Assembly: GCF_002269385.1 (NCBI RefSeq) | Contig: NZ_CP022957.1 | Location: 4,517,001 to 4,581,000, forward strand | Reading direction: 5' to 3' | From: Maribacter cobaltidurans | GTDB lineage: Bacteria > Bacteroidota > Bacteroidia > Flavobacteriales > Flavobacteriaceae | DNA length: 64,000 bases | In this document: piece after piece, positions 13,795-56,969 of the stretch | How the letters are laid out: the number at the start of each line of letters is the position of its first letter | How positions within the stretch are numbered: position 1 is the stretch's first letter | Notes under the pieces: generated by a model | Told to the model about the DNA's origin: nothing | Database searches by the model: none | Seen by the model: the letters and a program-made list of their open reading frames with translations, nothing else | Position numbers and translations under genes: made by a program

Positions 13795-16700
13795 TTATAG
13801 ATTGCCCAATTGATATTGTATCTCAATGGCCTGTTGGTTATATTGGTTGATGAAATCCAAATGGTTTATTTTGATGTTGATGGCACTGTTGAGGATGGTG
13901 ATATAGCTAATGTAGTCTATCTCACCTTCCTTGTTTGCCAGTTCGGCAGTGGTCAACTGTTCCTCTGCCAGTGGCAGTGCCGCTTCTTCATAGTACCTCA
14001 ACGACTTCAACGTTTTGTCCTGGGCTTTGTACAGTTGGGAGACCAGGCTCTCGGTGGTCGCCTTTTGTGTCAAATACTGGTTTTCGGCCACCATGGCATC
14101 TGCCTTGGCCGCCCTTACCCTATTTTTTTGCGGAAGGAACCACAAAGGGATGCTGATGCCCGCCTGATAGGCATTGAACCCCGTAACATCATTATACTTG
14201 AGATTGTCATAGCTCAGGCTGAACTTTGGCAGGAACTGGGATTTTTCGACCTTTACGTTCGCTTTGCCCACTGCTGCGTTCTGAAGGTCGAACTGCAGCA
14301 ACGGGTTATTGCTTATATCCAAAGTGTCTACAACCGATATTGGGTTTATGATCCCATAAGGCCCATCCATCGTATCAATGGAACCATCGATTCCCAGATA
14401 TTGCTTCAATGCCCTTTTGGCGATCTCGATATCATCATAGGACTGTTGCTTTAATACCTGTATTTGTTGGTACTCCGAGGTAGCCGAAATATAGGCGAGT
14501 TTTCCGGTCTCACCGCTATCGTACCTCAATTTGGCCGCACTTTCAAAATCGGCATAGATGCTGTCCAGCCTTTCGGCGAGCTTCAGGCGGGCCTTATTGT
14601 AGGCAATCTCGTAATAGGCCTGCATCACATCCCGTAACAGCTGCTGCTCACTAAGGTCATAGAATTTCTCGCCCAGCTTGGTGCGTTCCTTATAGAACCT
14701 GGATTTTGAAAACCCGGAGAGCAGGTCAATGTTGCCCTGTTGTACCCCGAAGGTACGCAGATTTCCCTGATTCAGGCCTTGGTCTTCCCTGCCGGCATAT
14801 AGAAACGTGCTGCCCAGGTCAAAACTGGTGCCCTTCAAGGCCTGTTCCCTGTCTATGAACGCTTGTCCTTCCTTAAGGGTGGGGTAATTTTCCCTTGCCA
14901 TTGCTATAGCTTCATCTAAAGTCAAGGTTTGAGCGATGGGATTGTTTTGGGCCGATAGGTTACCAGATGATAAAAATCCTCCAACCAACAATAAAACTGG
15001 AATGATGGCTTGACTTTTTTTGATATAACCCGTATTGTCACCATTATTTCTACGCTCCTTACGGGATTCCAACCAACTATAAAGTACCGGGACTACCACC
15101 AATGTTAAAAAGGTTGCCGTAATCAAGCCACCAATAACGACGGTTGCCAATGGTCGCTGCACTTCTGCACCACCGGAAGTAGAAATCGCCATTGGGATAA
15201 AGCCCATAATGGCCGCCGTTGCCGTAAGCAATATAGGGCGCAAGCGCTCGTGGGTTGCCTCGTAGATCCTGTCTTTTAAATTTGTCATACCACTTTCTTT
15301 TAAATCATTGAATTTGTTGATCAGTACCAATCCGTTCAATACCGCTACCCCAAAGAGCACGATAAACCCAACACCTGCGGAAATACTGAATGGCATTCCC
15401 CGTATCCAAAGGGCAAACACGCCACCAATGGCTGCCAGGGGTACTGCCATATAAATCATTACCGACTGTGAGAACGAGCTCAAGGCAAAGTAGAGCAATA
15501 TGAAAATTAGGAACAGTGCAATAGGCACTACGATCATTAATCGGTCGGTCGCCCTTTGAAGGTTCTCAAAAGAACCGCCATAGGTTATATAATAGCCCGG
15601 GGGCAGTTTCAACTGGGCATCGAGCTTTTGCTGAACCTCCTCGACCATGGACTTGACATCCCTGCCCCGAACGTTTACCCCCACATAGATTCGCCGGTAG
15701 GTATTGTCCCTGGAAATTTGCATGGGCCCGGGTTTATAGCTGATGTCCGCCAATTCCTTTAGGGGCACTTGGTTACCACTGGGCAGGTCTATGTACAGGT
15801 TTTTAAGGTTGTTGATATCCTTTCGATAGGCCTCGGCCAGACGGATGACCACTTCAAAGCGCTTTTCGCCCTCGAATATGACACTTGCCGATTCCCCTGC
15901 GAAGGCGGCACTCACATAATCGTTGAGCTTGTCAATGGTAACCCCGTATTGCGCCATCTTTGCCCGGTTATAGACAACGGTCATCTGTGGCAGGCCACTG
16001 GTCGCTTCCGCCCGTACATCACCAGCGCCATCTACGGTTTGTATGATTGCCGCCATTTCTTGCGCCTTTTCGGCCAGAACATCCAGGTCCTCACCATAGA
16101 TCTTGATGGCAACATCTTCCCGGACACCCGTCAACAGTTCATTGAAACGGAGCTCTACGGGTTGGGTAAACACAAAGTTCACACCGGGGATAACCGAAAT
16201 CTTTTCCTTTATTTTTTCTATGAGTTCTTCCTTGCTCTCCGCACTGGTCCATTTGCTCTTATCCTTTTCAAGGATGATGTAACTATCGGCAATGTCCATG
16301 GGCATGGGGTCGGTAGGGATTTCTGCCACCCCGATCCTCGAGATCATGGTCTTCACTTCGGGAAATTCATTTACCAGATTTTGTAGTTTTTTTGAAGCTT
16401 CAATGGATTCGGTAAGGCTACTGCCAGGTTTTATCAGGGCCTGCATGGCAATATCGCCTTCATCCAGCTTTGGGATAAACTCCCCGCCCATAGTGCTAAA
16501 AATAAATCCTGCGATTGCCAGTAAAGCAACTGCCCCTAAAACAATACCTGCCTTAAAACGCAATGCAAACGAAAGCAATGGCTTATACGCTTTGTTCAAC
16601 CCTGCCATGATTTTATCACTGAACCTATCGATACTATTTTCAAATTTGGCGAACCAATGGTCCGGGTTTTTTGCAGGTTTCAGGAACAAGGCCGAAACCA

Positions 16701-49345: not shown

Positions 49346-49364
49346 ACCATAAATCTTGAATTCA

Positions 49365-50852
49365 ATGTTTCTAAAAATCAAAAGAATAACAAGGAACAAA
49401 ACGTATCTAATTCTTCTAATTGTATTTTCTTTCCTTGGATGTAAAAATGCTAATAAGGCTGACAGACCAGAAACCAAGGAACCCACGGGAACGGAAAATG
49501 TTGCCTACAAATGGGGGAAAATGGCACTTAAGGCAACCGCGAACGACACCGAGCGTTTCAAACCTAGACCTACGATTACTTCAAGATATTTAGGGTTGAT
49601 ATTCGTGTCAGTCTTTGATGCGTGGTCAAGATACGATGAAAAGGCAACGCCCGTTTATCTTGAAAATGTTGAAAGAAGGCCTGCAGACGAACAAACATTA
49701 AGAAACAAGGAAATAGCCATTAGCTATGCCGCGTTAAGGGCAATGAACGAGTATTATTTTTCGGACAAGGAAATGTTCGAGGATTTTATGGTTGAAATGG
49801 GCTTAGATCCTAATGATGAAAGTCTAGACCCAAATACACCTATTGGAATTGGCAACCTTGCGGCAAAGGCTGTAATTGAAGCAAGGAAAGGAGATGGTTC
49901 CAATCAATATGGCGAAGAAGAGGGGTCTAATGGAAAAGCTTATTACAATTATGTAGGTTATGAACCCATCAATTCAGCAGACAAAAGTGTGGACCCAAAT
50001 CGTTGGCAGCCAAAATATTTTTCAGATGGAAAAGGTGGAACTTATGCTCCAGAATGTCTTACTCCCTATTGGGACAAGGTAACTCCCGTTTCCTTGACAT
50101 CAGGAGATCAATTTAGACCGGGACCACCACCTATGATTGGTTCAAAGCAATTAGAGGAAGAAGTTAAAGAGGTGATTGAGTTACAGGCAAATCTAACGGA
50201 CTATCAAAAAGCTCTAGTGGAATTTATGCGCGATGGGCCTCAGTCAGTACAACAGGCAGGCCACTGGCTAAAATTTGCGCAGGATGTTTCAGAAAGGGAC
50301 AACCATACCCTAGATCAAGACGTGAAAATGTATTTTTATAATCAAGTTGTTGCCATGGACGCCTTCATTGCTTCATGGGATTCCAAAATGTTCTATGATT
50401 ATGCTAGACCATATGCATTGGTTCATGAATATTATGACGACCAGAAAATAAAAGCATGGGGAGGCGAAGGAAAGGGCATGATAGAGATGAATGGTGGACA
50501 ATGGAGACCGTATTCCCCTGAAACATTTCTGTGCCCTCCATTCCCCAGTTATGTATCAGGTCATAGCACAATAAGTGGAGGATGTGCCGAAGCTTTGAGA
50601 TTATGGACAGGAAACGATGAATTTGGTTCCACTGCCGAACTCGTTGCAGGTGCAATGACGGAACCGGATTATATGGGCGATACCATTTTACTGGATTTCC
50701 CTACTTTCACTGAAACAGCCGAAATGGCTGGAATTTCCAGAGTTTTGGGTGGATATCATATTCAATCGGATAACATTGCCGGATTAAAACTGGGAAGGGA
50801 CGTAGCGCAGGAAGCCTGGAAATTCTATAAGACACATGTAGGAGAGGAATGA
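49365..50852 (+). CDS. Vanadium-haloperoxidase/PAP2-family lipoprotein
   Basis: 495 residues from ATG at 49365; an in-frame TTG nine bases upstream is less likely. Lipoprotein signal IVFSFLGCKNAN. The phosphatase/vanadate-binding pocket is complete: KMFYDYARP fits K-x6-RP, PSYVSGHSTISGG supplies the SGH, and SRVLGGYHIQSD fits SR-x5-H-x3-D exactly. It could be a halide-oxidising enzyme or a phosphatase of the same fold; sequence alone does not decide, and nothing seen here proves vanadium binding. It lies downstream of SusC/SusD with its own candidate operator, so it may belong to the xylan regulon, for example in handling phenolic or oxidative side products (inference). Confidence 0.88.
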   Translation: MFLKIKRITRNKTYLILLIVFSFLGCKNANKADRPETKEPTGTENVAYKWGKMALKATANDTERFKPRPTITSRYLGLIFVSVFDAWSRYDEKATPVYLENVERRPADEQTLRNKEIAISYAALRAMNEYYFSDKEMFEDFMVEMGLDPNDESLDPNTPIGIGNLAAKAVIEARKGDGSNQYGEEEGSNGKAYYNYVGYEPINSADKSVDPNRWQPKYFSDGKGGTYAPECLTPYWDKVTPVSLTSGDQFRPGPPPMIGSKQLEEEVKEVIELQANLTDYQKALVEFMRDGPQSVQQAGHWLKFAQDVSERDNHTLDQDVKMYFYNQVVAMDAFIASWDSKMFYDYARPYALVHEYYDDQKIKAWGGEGKGMIEMNGGQWRPYSPETFLCPPFPSYVSGHSTISGGCAEALRLWTGNDEFGSTAELVAGAMTEPDYMGDTILLDFPTFTETAEMAGISRVLGGYHIQSDNIAGLKLGRDVAQEAWKFYKTHVGEE

Positions 50853-51075: not shown

Positions 51076-51978
51076 ATGGATTTTATAGATTATTATAAAG
51101 TTTTAGGAATTGACAAATCTGCGACCGAAAAGGAAATAAAGTCGGCCTATAGAAAACTGGCTAGAAAACATCATCCAGATTTAAACCCTAATAATACCGA
51201 AGCCGAAGAAAAATTTAAAAAAATCAATGAGGCCCACGAGGTTTTAAGTGATCCCGAGAAAAGAAAAAAATACGACCAATACGGAAAAGATTGGCAACAT
51301 GCGGAGGAGTTTGAGAAAACTAAATCCCAAAGGCAAAGCAGACCATCAGGTGGAGGTTACAATGAATATACCTACTCAAGTGGGCAAGACGGGGATTTTT
51401 CAGATTTCTTTGAATCTATGTTTGGAGGCGGAGGTAGATTTGAAAGACAACAGGGCAGGGCAAAGTTCAGGGGGCAAGATTTTAATGCAGAACTTCGACT
51501 AAACCTTTCGGAAGTCAAGGAGACGCATAAGAGAACCCTAACGGTAAACGGAAAGAATATAAGAATAACCATACCCGCGGGTATAGAAGACGGACAAACG
51601 ATCAAAATAAAAGGGTATGGCGGTGAAGGCGTTAACGGAGGACCCCATGGTGACCTATACATCACCTTTTCTATTTTAAACGATACTTCCTTTAAAAGGG
51701 AAGGTGCCAATCTTTATAAAACCATTGAAATTCCTTTGACCACGGCGGTATTGGGAGGAGAAATTGTAGTAGAAACCCTAACGGGAAAAGTAAAATTAAA
51801 TGTAAAACCTGGCACACAAAATGGCACTACGGTTAAACTCAAGGGCAAAGGATTTCCTGTATATAAAAAAGATGGATTTGGAGATTTATATATCACCTAT
51901 AGCCCTAAAATACCCACAAAAATTACGGAAAAGCAAAAAAGCCTTTTCATGGAACTGGAAAAAACCGATCTCAAATAA
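51076..51978 (+). CDS. cbpA: CbpA-type DnaJ-domain co-chaperone
   Basis: 300 residues. J-domain (about 1-70): [20 protein letters not shown] with the HPD motif in [13 protein letters not shown] Gly-rich linker ([17 protein letters not shown]) follows, then the two C-terminal substrate-binding domains ([40 protein letters not shown]). There is no Cys-rich zinc domain, so it is class B (CbpA) not DnaJ. It stimulates the ATPase of DnaK in the cytosol. The CbpM gene follows after six bases. Confidence 0.95.
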
Positions 51979-51984
51979 GAAATC

Positions 51985-52278
51985 ATGGAACAATCCACCT
52001 ACATATCTATCGAAGAATTTTGTACTCATTACAACATAGACGTTTCGTTGGTGCATCAACTTGAGGAGTTTGAGTTACTTTCAATTGAAATAACGGATGA
52101 AAAGGAGGTCATAAGAACAACCGAACTCCCAAAACTGGAAAAAATGGTACGCCTCAATCAAGAATTGGAAATTAATCCCCAGGGACTGCAGGCCATCCAT
52201 CATCTACTGGAGCAGATTACCCACTTACAAGAAGAAGTATTGTCTTTGCGAAGGAGGCTCAATAGGTTTGAAAATTAA
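51985..52278 (+). CDS. cbpM: CbpM-like chaperone modulator
   Basis: 97 residues. It begins MEQSTYISIEEFCTHYNIDV, a MerR-like helix-turn-helix used for protein binding, with LPKLEKMVRLNQELEINPQG in the middle and a C-terminal coiled coil (ITHLQEEVLSLRRRLNRFE). CbpM binds the J-domain of CbpA and inhibits it. The gene pair, close spacing and order match the known cbpA-cbpM operon. Confidence 0.9.
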   Translation: MEQSTYISIEEFCTHYNIDVSLVHQLEEFELLSIEITDEKEVIRTTELPKLEKMVRLNQELEINPQGLQAIHHLLEQITHLQEEVLSLRRRLNRFEN

Positions 52279-52528
52279 TACTTGGTTTACATCCAGCATC
52301 TGAACACTTTTTCTATTCAATTTTAAAATTCTTTAACGCAATCGGGATTTTTTTGGTAAATCATCGTTATGCATTCTTAACCTTGCGTATATGGGATTGC
52401 GCTAAACTAAAAGGGTGTAAATCCCCGCTAAGTTAACTATATCAGTACTTAAGACTTATTAAACAGAAAAATATTAAAAAATAATTTTATTTTTAGGTCT
52501 TTACTTAACAGTACTTTTTGACACTAAC

Positions 52529-53977
52529 ATGCTCTATATAAATTTTGAACATCCTTTCGATCAATTAAGAAAATTGGCCTTAAGCTTGAATGCAGATTTC
52601 AAGGAATTCCAAGATTCTGCAATATTGACCCTTAATAATGATTTGGGCAAGGGCCATGTAACCACATACAATGTTTTGGAAGGCCTCAATGTAAGAATCT
52701 ATGATATAACCTTCAATGAGGAATTTAAGCTAACCAAAATGGAGCAGGACCCCTCCATAATCTATTTTCTGTATTGTATTAAAGGGCATTTTTTTCACAA
52801 ATTTGAAAATCAAGAAGATTACACTAAAATTTACCCCAGACAAAATGTAATATATTCAAGTGCCCCAAAATCCCCTAATATTGTCACCTTTCCGGCAAAT
52901 GTTCATTTAAGGCTAAGTGCTATTTTCGTAAAGAGTGTGACAAAACCTTCCAACTCCAAAAGAAGGACAATTTTGGAATCTGCACTGGATGATATTACTT
53001 CTTTTATTCAAAAAGATAACCCCTTTAGTTATTATGGCGAGATCAGTCCAGTGACATCCAAATATGCCAAGATATTGATTGATAATAATCGTACGGATGC
53101 CGTTGGAAAACTTTTGGTGGAGGGAGCGGTAATAAATACCCTTGCTTCACAAGTAGAGCACCATGATGCTGCCAAAGAAGAGGCCCAAATAGGGTTTCCT
53201 CTAACCAATAGCGAAATTCTGAAGATATCCGAGGTTGCTGAATATATTGCAGAAAATATAGATCAATCCCTTAATATAGACCATCTATCCAAAACTTTTG
53301 GGTTATCGCCAAAAAAACTTCAAGCCGGTTTTAGGCATCTATTTGGGGAAAGCCTAGGTAATTTCATAACACATTTACGCCTGGAAAAGGGAAAAGAACT
53401 ATTGCAGCATACGGATTTAAATATATCTGAAGTTTGTTATAAAATTGGGTTTTCCAGTAGAAGCTATTTCTCAAAGACATTTTCAGAAAGGTTTGGACTT
53501 TTGCCCAGTAAATTTAAAAACTCACTTTCCTCGGATGATTTAGTATATGAACTGACCTATAAATCTACCATGTCCGATGGTATTCAACTTTCCGATATCG
53601 AGGATATTATTGAGGAGGCAGAACCAAGAAATCAAGAACACAACATTACGGGCTGCCTTGTTTGTCAAAATAACAATTTCTTTCAATTGTTGGAAGGGCC
53701 TAAATCCAATGTGCTGTATATCTATGAAAAAATTAAAAAAGACCCAAGGCACTATGATCTGGAAATTCTTACCCGTAAAATAAATTCCAATCGCTTTTTT
53801 CCACAGTGGAGCATGGCCTTGCTTTCCGAAAAGGACGAATTGAAGGACACCTTTAAGGACAGGGCAGTAGATTTAAATTTGGATACGGAGAGTATTCTGC
53901 AAGGTGACAATTTACATATAAGTAGCACGGTCTTTTGGAGAAGGGTCCTAAATATGATAAAGGCTTCAAAAGCCTAA
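52529..53977 (+). CDS. AraC-type regulator with C-terminal BLUF blue-light sensor
   Basis: 482 residues. The N-terminal sensor part (about 1-225) has no clear family match. The AraC HTH (about 233-331) has NIDHLSKTFGLSPKKLQAGF and ISEVCYKIGFSSRSYFSKTF. A BLUF flavin domain follows (about 334-434): YELTYKST, EPRNQEHNITGCLV, FFQLLEGP and FFPQWSMALL. By my count the flavin-site residues are Y344, N368, Q386, W427 and M429. The spacings of 24, 42, 83 and 85 equal those of AppA Y21, N45, Q63, W104 and M106, so the domain should be photoactive. It is likely a light-controlled DNA-binding protein. It lies 157 bases before the uvrA start, same strand. Confidence 0.9.
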   Translation: MLYINFEHPFDQLRKLALSLNADFKEFQDSAILTLNNDLGKGHVTTYNVLEGLNVRIYDITFNEEFKLTKMEQDPSIIYFLYCIKGHFFHKFENQEDYTKIYPRQNVIYSSAPKSPNIVTFPANVHLRLSAIFVKSVTKPSNSKRRTILESALDDITSFIQKDNPFSYYGEISPVTSKYAKILIDNNRTDAVGKLLVEGAVINTLASQVEHHDAAKEEAQIGFPLTNSEILKISEVAEYIAENIDQSLNIDHLSKTFGLSPKKLQAGFRHLFGESLGNFITHLRLEKGKELLQHTDLNISEVCYKIGFSSRSYFSKTFSERFGLLPSKFKNSLSSDDLVYELTYKSTMSDGIQLSDIEDIIEEAEPRNQEHNITGCLVCQNNNFFQLLEGPKSNVLYIYEKIKKDPRHYDLEILTRKINSNRFFPQWSMALLSEKDELKDTFKDRAVDLNLDTESILQGDNLHISSTVFWRRVLNMIKASKA

Positions 53978-54089
53978 ATAGATAGCATTTGGATAAAGCT
54001 AACCCATAAGTTTGTCATTAGGGATTTTTCAATTTTACCCAATTAGGACATCGAGTCACATTAATCCAAATATAAGGGAAGGCAGGTAC

Positions 54090-54117
54090 TTGTTTCGAGA
54101 TCAAAATCGTAATTTTG
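54090..54117 (+). promoter_or_regulatory. uvrA promoter
   Basis: TAATTTTG (54110-54117) matches the TAnnTTTG -7 element, with TTG at 54090-54092 as a possible -33 element about 20 bases upstream. The uvrA ATG follows 18 bases later (54135). This supports 54135 as the true start over a longer open frame that begins at 54012. Confidence 0.6.
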
Positions 54118-54134
54118 CACCTTTGCCAAATGCT

Positions 54135-56969
54135 ATGATCAATTACGAAGAAAATATTGAGGTAAAAGGAGCGCGCGTCCATAATCTGAAAAATATAGAT
54201 GTAACTATTCCAAGGGAGAAACTTGTCGTGATAACGGGTCTTTCCGGTAGTGGTAAATCATCCTTGGCCTTTGACACGATTTATGCCGAAGGACAGCGTA
54301 GATACATAGAGACATTTTCCGCGTATGCCCGTCAGTTTTTGGGTGGATTGGAAAGACCGGATGTAGATAAAATAGATGGATTATCCCCTGTAATTGCCAT
54401 AGAACAAAAGACTACCTCAAAATCTCCTAGATCTACCGTTGGTACCATCACGGAAGTTTACGATTTCCTTAGATTGCTTTTTGCCCGTGCGGCCGATGCG
54501 CATAGCTATAATACAGGAGAAAAAATGGTAAGCTACAGTGATGAACAAATCAGGAATTTGATTATCGATACTTATAAGGATAAGAAAATTAATGTTCTGG
54601 CTCCGATTATAAAATCGAGAAAAGGACATTACAGGGAACTGTTCGAGCAAATTGCCAAGCAGGGATTCGTAAAGGTTCGGGTAGATGGTGAGATAAGGGA
54701 CATTGTCAAGGGCATGAAGGTCGATCGATACAAGACCCATGATATTGAAATAGTTATTGACAGACTAAAAGTTCAGGAAAGCGAGGAGTTGCATAAGCGA
54801 CTGGCAGAAACCATCAATACTGCCATGTATAGCGGTGATAATGTTTTGATGGTACTTGAGGAAGGTTCTGATGTTCCAAGATATTTTAGTAGAGACCTTA
54901 TGTGCCCAACCACAGGTATCTCCTACCCCACCCCGGAACCTAATACATTTTCCTTTAACTCCCCAAAGGGAATGTGCCCCAATTGTAGCGGTTTGGGCCA
55001 TGTTTATGAAGTCAATGAGGACAAAATATTCCCCAACAAAAAACTCTCCATAAAAAACGGAGGTATAGCGCCATTGGGGGATTATAAGAAATCATGGGCT
55101 TTTAAACAGATTGAGACCATCGCACAGCGATATGGATTTGAGCTCACGGACCCAATCAATAAATTACCAACAGAGGCCATTGAAATTCTCCTGAACGGGG
55201 GAAATGAAAGTTTTGAGGTAGATTCCAAATCATTGGGCGTAAAAAGAACATATAAAATTGATTACGAAGGAATTTCCAATTTTATCAAAAGCCAGTATGA
55301 CCAAGCGGAATCAACATCCATAAAGCGATGGGCCAGGGAATACATGGATAAAATAAAATGTCCCTCCTGTGAAGGAACCCGTCTCAAAAAGGAATCACTA
55401 TATTTTAAAATTGATGACAGGAATATTGCAGAATTGGCCAATATGGATATTGCCGAGTTGGCCAATTTTTTTGAAGGTCTTGAAAAGACCCTCGAAGGGA
55501 ACCAATTGAAGATTGCGGAGGAGATCATCAAGGAAATTCGCACCAGAATTCGCTTTCTTTTAGATGTAGGCCTGGATTACCTTTCCCTGAACCGTAGCTC
55601 AAAATCATTATCTGGCGGTGAGGCACAAAGAATCCGCTTAGCGACCCAGATAGGCTCTCAATTGGTAGGTGTACTTTACATTTTGGACGAACCTAGCATC
55701 GGCTTGCACCAAAGGGACAATTCCCGTCTTATTAAGTCCTTGGAGTCCTTGAGGGACATTGGTAACTCCGTTATTGTTGTGGAGCATGATAGGGACATGA
55801 TCGAGCGTGCAGACCACGTTATTGATATAGGACCAAAGGCAGGTAAGCATGGAGGGGAAATAATTTCCCAGGGAACGCCAGAAGACCTTAAAAATCATCA
55901 TACACTTACTGCGGACTACATTACCGGAGTAAAAGAAATAAAAGTTCCTAAAAAGCGGAGAACGGGAAATGGTAAAAAGATAGTTCTTTCTGGTTGCACA
56001 GGAAATAATTTAAAAAATATTAAGGTTGAATTTCCATTAGGGAAAATGATAGGGGTTACTGGAGTATCCGGAAGTGGTAAATCCACCTTAATCAACGAAA
56101 CCCTCTATCCTATCATGAACGCCCATTATTTCAATGGTGTTAAAAAACCAATGCCTTATAAAAAAATTACGGGCCTTGAGCATATAGATAAGGTAATCGA
56201 CATCAACCAATCTCCAATTGGCAGAACACCGCGCTCCAATCCGGCCACCTACACTGGGGTATTCAGTGAGATTCGGTCGTTGTTCACCAAAACTCCCGAA
56301 GCGTCCATACGAGGCTATAAACCGGGTAGATTCAGTTTTAATGTGAAAGGAGGAAGATGCGAAACTTGCCAAGGTGGAGGGTTAAGGGTAATTGAAATGA
56401 ATTTTCTGCCTGATGTCTATGTAGAATGTGAAACCTGTAATGGTAAGCGATTTAATAGGGAAACACTAGAGATACGATACAAGGGTAAATCCATTTCCGA
56501 TGTATTGGAAATGACCATCAACGAGGCAGTGGATTTTTTTGAGGCCATACCCAAAATACATAGAAAGCTAAAAACCATTCAAAATGTGGGATTGGGGTAT
56601 ATTTCCTTGGGTCAGCAATCAACAACACTTTCTGGTGGTGAAGCACAAAGAATTAAATTGGCCACTGAACTATCCAAAAGGGATACGGGAAATACCTTTT
56701 ATATTTTGGACGAACCAACAACAGGTTTGCATTTTGAGGATATAAGGGTACTTATGGAAGTATTGAACAAGCTGGTGAATAAAGGGAATACGGTTTTGGT
56801 TATTGAACATAACTTGGATGTAATAAAAATGGTAGACCACGTTATTGATATAGGATATGAAGGTGGTCGATCAGGTGGCAAGTTGATTGCTACCGGAACC
56901 CCGGAAGAAATTTGTGAGGTTGAAGACAGTTATACGGCAGAGTTTTTGAGAAAAGAATTAAAAATATAA
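54135..56969 (+). CDS. uvrA: Excinuclease ABC subunit A
   Basis: 944 residues from ATG at 54135, normal UvrA length; the reading frame is open 41 codons further upstream but that stretch holds the promoter and is not conserved in the family. Two ABC ATPase halves: Walker [13 protein letters not shown] and [13 protein letters not shown]; signatures [13 protein letters not shown] and [13 protein letters not shown]. Zinc fingers: CPNCSGLG with CPSCEGTR, and [10 protein letters not shown] with CETCNGKRF. It recognises bulky and UV lesions in nucleotide excision repair with UvrB. The LOG-family gene follows after nine bases. Confidence 0.97.

Follow-up and report, generated by a model that had tools for sequence, protein, structure and literature searches.

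A gene of Maribacter cobaltidurans that lies directly before uvrA encodes an AraC-type transcription factor carrying a BLUF photosensor domain at its C-terminus. The locus raises two questions: whether blue light acts on gene expression through a single polypeptide, and whether excision repair is among the functions controlled. We analyzed it within the window, a stretch of 64,000 nucleotides, together with related loci from the genus, the family and the phylum (Table 1). Of the possible readings of the sequence and the modeled fold, blue-light control of gene expression by a single polypeptide is the best supported, and uvrA is most likely a bystander of the regulator.

Table 1. Features of the regulator locus, with positions in the window. 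Counts out of 81 refer to fused proteins distinct by sequence, including near-copies and three short fragments (P0038, P0040, P0046).
Feature	Position	Strand	Remark
cbpA-like DnaJ co-chaperone	51076..51978	+	Upstream neighbor in the orthologue group
cbpM-like MerR_2 protein	51985..52278	+	MerR_2 above cut-off; CbpM model matched below its cut-off
Upstream block A, TTAACGCAATCGG, candidate operator half	52333..52345	+	At -196; 13-nt motif identity 0.79, 7 orthologues
Upstream block B, TTAACTATATCAG, candidate operator half	52433..52445	+	At -96; window identity 0.88
Cupin-AraC-BLUF regulator gene, 482 aa	52529..53977	+	Intact ORF, ATG start
N-terminal cupin barrel and helices, residues 1-224	52529..53200	+	Resembles the N-domain of AraC-type regulators
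AraC-type double helix-turn-helix DNA-binding domain, residues 228-335	53210..53533	+	
BLUF core, residues 338-437	53540..53839	+	
Tyr344, BLUF photochemistry	53558..53560	+	Kept 81/81
Asn368	53630..53632	+	Kept 80/81
Gln386, BLUF photochemistry	53684..53686	+	Kept 81/81
Trp427-Ser-Met429	53807..53815	+	W 74/81; position 429 M 50, L 31 of 81
Helices C-terminal to the BLUF core, residues 439-481	53843..53971	+	W470 kept 79/81
uvrA core promoter-like block	54101..54125	+	Present also without AraC-BLUF
uvrA, neighbor only	54135..56969	+	TIGR00630, 1328 bits

Domain architecture and the BLUF pocket

Pfam profiles place HTH_18 at residues 253-331 (E 3e-20, 72.7 bits against a cut-off of 33.6) and BLUF (PF04940) at residues 340-430 (E 2.6e-27, 95.2 bits against a cut-off of 25), which confirms the preliminary description of an AraC DNA-binding domain fused to a C-terminal BLUF domain. 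By fold, the DNA-binding part matches the DNA-binding domains of AdpA, MarA and AraC, and it has the two helix-turn-helix (HTH) motifs with the HTH_18 profile that characterize AraC/XylS proteins. A third domain had been overlooked: residues 1-224 model as a cupin-type fold, which is found in a subset of AraC/XylS regulators. The best NCBIfam match of the protein scores 61.2, far under its cut-off of 850. With a photosensor and a DNA-binding domain on the same polypeptide, the protein has the composition of a light-regulated one-component transcription factor.

In a phmmer alignment, residues 340-442 run gap-free against residues 4-106 of Tll0078 (PDB 1x0p), so that Y344, N368, Q386, W427 and M429, counted on the alignment, fall on Y8, N32, Q50, W91 and M93. 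These residues had also been said to reproduce the spacing of AppA, whose corresponding positions we take to be Y21, N45, Q63, W104 and M106; the spacing is the same, in agreement with the Tll0078 alignment. The Tyr-Gln pair and the Asn of the flavin pocket are therefore at the spacing conserved in the BLUF family. Across a 29-row alignment that reaches down to 29% identity with the window protein, Tyr344, Asn368 and Gln386 are among 23 invariant columns, which indicates that the BLUF pocket is under selection.

A BLUF domain could instead be a structural element, or a sensor of redox state or temperature, with no physiological role for light. Relatives without BLUF do exist, and the same residues could serve flavin redox chemistry; however, Tyr and Gln, which serve the BLUF light reaction according to the relevant passages of PMC4844311, are both kept in every one of the fused proteins compared, and we judge this explanation to be quite improbable. 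We favor, with a probability of about 0.72, a dual-input, blue-light-responsive one-component regulator (cupin, residues 1-224; AraC, 228-335; BLUF and C-terminal helices, 338-482) that is perhaps autoregulatory and has uvrA as a bystander. The blue-light red-shift of BLUF proteins is usually 10-15 nm, as given in a passage of PMC11011852.

The regulator can be set against known systems, each of which shares part of its design. AppA, BlrB and PixD-type BLUF photosensors are short or act on partners, EL222-type regulators have a LuxR-type HTH and no cupin domain, and the E. coli repressor YcgE (BluR) is MerR-type. Unlike in AppA, BlrB and PixD, the BLUF domain here sits on the DNA-binding protein itself. 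As in the cupin-bearing AraC/XylS regulators AraC, BgaR, CuxR and ToxT, a cupin and helices precede the double HTH, but a BLUF domain has been added after the DNA-binding domain. EL222-type LOV-HTH regulators likewise combine a light sensor and a DNA-binding domain in one chain (passages of PMC4844311), although their sensor is LOV rather than BLUF and the photochemistry differs. The same passages describe BLUF input to transcription for E. coli YcgF (BluF)/YcgE (BluR), where, in contrast, two polypeptides share the task, an EAL-linked BLUF protein and a distinct repressor, and they state that HTH proteins are quite frequent among flavin blue-light receptors.

Each part of the regulator belongs to a known kind; their combination appears to be new. 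No natural AraC-type transcription factor with a built-in BLUF domain is described in the titles and abstract starts among the matches listed from the open PMC library. The fusion is likewise undescribed in the relevant passages of PMC9614035 and PMC9020721, which are among the 18 papers containing both words BLUF and AraC, and in those of PMC4844311, PMC4603819, PMC3164672 and PMC11011852. Supplementary lists may hold an earlier listing. PMC4603819, on Aquimarina longa, mentions a single BLUF protein and the occurrence of a similar domain among other marine Flavobacteriaceae. The cupin-AraC-BLUF family appears to be little studied.

Distribution and origin of the fusion

The earlier remark that most BLUF proteins are short or EAL-linked holds for published figures (64% short and 34% EAL, in the part of Losi et al. 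2014, PMC4844311, that treats them) and for our phylum sample. BLUF is present in 46 of 395 phylum genomes, with 73 matches (one below cut-off), of which 69 lie in frames of 114-250 aa. The other four, in frames of 489-499 aa (one each in G000 and G489, two in G154), are all AraC-BLUF.

A protein search returned 240 relatives, and the same three Pfam hits occur in 47 among the 120 matches listed; 44 of these proteins have 478-489 aa and three are shorter, with identity down to 31%. Their source names, where given, are BLUF domain-containing, helix-turn-helix domain-containing or AraC-like DNA-binding proteins. In the bacterial family, at least 11 of 397 genomes encode full-length cupin-AraC-BLUF proteins, at no fewer than 14 loci, a lower bound with at most a few candidates scored per genome. 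Within the genus they are found in 9 of 36 genomes, namely seven orthologues at 72% or more (including this genome) and two distant members at 34-36%. When one genome per species was scanned with a single peptide pattern, 35 loci were obtained; 25 carry a whole AraC-BLUF gene (L004-L028) and 10 the BLUF part only. Of the whole loci, 24 are labeled as Bacteroidota members; the remaining one (L014) is labeled as an Algicola MAG, and its BLUF groups with that of a Dokdonia MAG. Nine of the BLUF-only loci were read, L032 at a contig end being left out, and they comprise eight short BLUFs and one BLUF-EAL (EAL by eye).

Tandem AraC-BLUF genes were observed at L098 (9001-12099), and a second such pair at L011 (10001-13161) lies 3' of a mutS-like gene (by eye). 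The single loss of the pocket Asn among the 81 fused proteins concerns the second copy at L098 (10648-12099), which is perhaps a light-blind partner.

Two trees bear on the origin of the fusion. In the AraC-part tree (73 rows, with the three short fused fragments of Table 1 left out), the fused state needs four changes, at least three of them forced by starred branches; P0055 and P0054, long branches that meet in this tree, were not relied on. Two groups without BLUF, P0026/P0031 and P0049-P0053, branch within the fused proteins and probably represent BLUF losses, at least two in number. The BLUF-part tree has 96 rows and few columns, its fused BLUFs being thinned at 75% identity to 53 and its short rows being the 43 short BLUFs of the fetched loci, not all 69 short phylum frames. 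Here 96% of bootstrap trees place all fused rows on the same side of a branch, whose support (94/67) is modest. The 11 short BLUFs next to them come almost entirely from the same family, and both short BLUFs of this genome are among them. A single fusion followed by losses fits both trees.

No BLUF gene was found within about 4-5 kb of three BLUF-less relatives (G396, G336 and G188), which were not placed in the AraC-part tree. Together with the BLUF-less relatives nested among fused proteins, this indicates that light input is dispensable in some lineages. Fusion of adjoining genes, with a short BLUF beside an AraC paralogue, was rejected as a general pattern: the arrangement was seen at 1 of 18 short-BLUF family loci within about 9 kb and at 0 of 14 controls.

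Upstream blocks and a possible mode of action

Two conserved blocks precede the regulator gene, 100 nt apart in this genome. Over the 300 nt upstream, window identity in the alignment of the seven orthologues averages 0.52. It is highest, at 0.91, in a window at -204 that covers ATTCTTTAAC, starts 8 nt 5' of block A and runs into it. A third stretch, near -53 to -44, is conserved as well (identity 0.84), so that blocks A and B may be sites of a different regulator or parts of the promoter. Both blocks fit TTAACN6RG at a distance of 97-100 nt in all seven orthologues, provided that one base change is accepted in block A of L025, with the pattern having been chosen after seeing the alignment and the seven orthologues being related. 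In this genome's version (TTAACN3ATCRG) the pair occurs once in the genome and 0 times in the control, and two TTAACN6RG sites arise in 0.09% of simple shuffles of the window's upstream region. Single sites show no enrichment in the genome (22 versus 24 in the control), and no regulon was drawn from the motif for this reason. Upstream of the more distant AraC-BLUF genes, the motif was found in 0 of 26 cases on the forward strand and in 4 of 26 on the reverse strand. We regard blocks A and B as a candidate operator pair, no more, through which the regulator is perhaps autoregulatory.

We propose the following sequence of events. FAD, predicted to occupy the BLUF pocket, would absorb blue light, and the hydrogen bonds between Tyr344, Gln386 and the flavin would switch. 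The change would then be relayed through the W427/M429 strand and on through the C-terminal helices, reaching either the abutting DNA-binding domain or BLUF-BLUF contacts, and would alter DNA binding or activation, while the cupin domain may add dimerization and a second signal. The regulator would most likely control its own promoter via the two upstream blocks as putative operators, together with distant, probably stress-type, genes.

A more specific proposal, tentative and rather doubtful as a whole, is a two-input gate in which an AraC-type dimer, responding to a small cupin ligand and to blue light through a BLUF placed beyond the DNA-binding domain, would open or close a DNA loop between two sites about 100 nt apart on its own promoter and drive a stress program gated by light and metabolite in marine Flavobacteriaceae. 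If true, nature would have supplied a transcription factor driven by BLUF that could be transferred to other hosts for optogenetics. The AraC-BLUF family would provide a compact light switch encoded by a single gene, for which the natural relatives without BLUF could serve as controls, and would give access to the blue-light responses of marine Flavobacteriaceae.

uvrA and the other neighbors

The preliminary description named uvrA as the next gene on the same strand, which is correct, and the uvrA ATG at 54135 leaves the intergenic gap of 53978-54134 that it gave. It also proposed that the regulator controls uvrA, making excision repair light-induced. This agrees with the presence of uvrA directly 3' of the regulator, on the same strand, in 7 of 7 orthologous loci (7 of the 36 genus genomes), and repair-type genes were recognized by eye near a few other fused loci: mutS (L011), umuDC (L097) and SRAP/YedK (L012, L023). 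The wider survey of AraC-BLUF neighbors gives a different picture, as uvrA occurs at 0 of 31 loci outside the orthologue group (stretches of 9-21 kb, some from close strains). Within the genus, a uvrA-type gene is present in 36 of 36 genomes, with a close orthologue (at least 88%) in 35; in the other, G419 (68% complete), uvrA is matched by a 47% paralogue only. No regulator lies beside uvrA in 28 of the 35. The seven orthologue-group genomes have uvrA similarities of at least 94%, the others of at most 92%; sharing the most similar uvrA, the seven probably form one lineage and count as one event, and the regulator-uvrA adjacency was probably inherited once.

Promoter comparison points in the same direction. 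Of 30 genus loci examined, 26 carry the core promoter-like block before uvrA under a strict pattern. It is present at all 6 that have the regulator upstream and at 20 of the 24 that lack it there. In none of the 30 loci does TTAACN6RG occur on the forward strand within the 300 nt that precede uvrA. In two related genomes (L105 and L106), a curli-like operon (by eye) occupies the place of AraC-BLUF between cbpM and uvrA. With uvrA lacking at the other fused loci and its core block present also without the regulator, the repair link comes down to one adjacency. Genus and wider neighborhoods and the promoter comparison rule it out as a general rule, and control of uvrA by this regulator is highly improbable. 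Two photolyase-family genes are located elsewhere in this genome, at 4.43 and 3.16 Mb.

The gene order of the orthologue group is cbpA, cbpM, AraC-BLUF and uvrA; the cbpA/cbpM-like genes just 5' of the regulator had been overlooked. Of the 36 genus genomes, 10 have a cbpM relative, and in 7 of 7 orthologues it lies directly upstream of the regulator. As partners of the regulator, cbpA and cbpM were rejected, since neither gene was found at any of the 31 other fused loci.

Alternatively, the BLUF domain might sense light while its output is not DNA binding by this protein but goes to another partner, be it an AraC paralogue, a response regulator or a short BLUF; the fused protein would then be an adaptor. 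An extra AraC-only paralogue with the same N-domain occurs at 9 of the 31 other fused loci, the one at L008 being weak (E 5e-6). None was seen in 14 control stretches, which came from other family genomes and were somewhat shorter and so are unmatched. The short BLUF BlsA, for instance, acts through Fur, according to the title of PMC5955987. Set against this are the double HTH, well kept in the fused proteins (K263, Q265, G307 and S312 are invariant in the 29 rows), and the upstream blocks, which may be the regulator's own operator; we consider an adaptor unlikely.

For the favored one-component regulator, neighbors offer limited hints of function. Stress- or light-type genes recognized by eye include catalase and a short BLUF at L022 and L027, a short BLUF at L101, ferritin-like genes at L018 and L108, heme oxygenase at L023, and response regulators at 8 of 32 loci. 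PAS-type kinases, also named by eye, recur at 6 of 32. The neighbors of distant AraC-BLUF loci vary widely, so that a stress link is suggestive only. At L023, a heme-oxygenase-like gene and response regulators (by eye) lie around 14207-15189, near AraC-BLUF, which suggests a bilin light sensor close by.

Elsewhere in this genome, the region at 2.59-2.64 Mb (L069-L071) contains two short BLUFs and five AraC paralogues that have the same N-domain, all as separate genes, in what appears by eye to be a stress-type stretch with Dps-like, UspA-like, cardiolipin synthase-like, mechanosensitive channel-like and SRAP/YedK-like genes. In the window itself, the protein encoded at 49356-50852 has DUF6851, VCPO second-domain and PAP2 matches, which identify it as vanadium-haloperoxidase-like.
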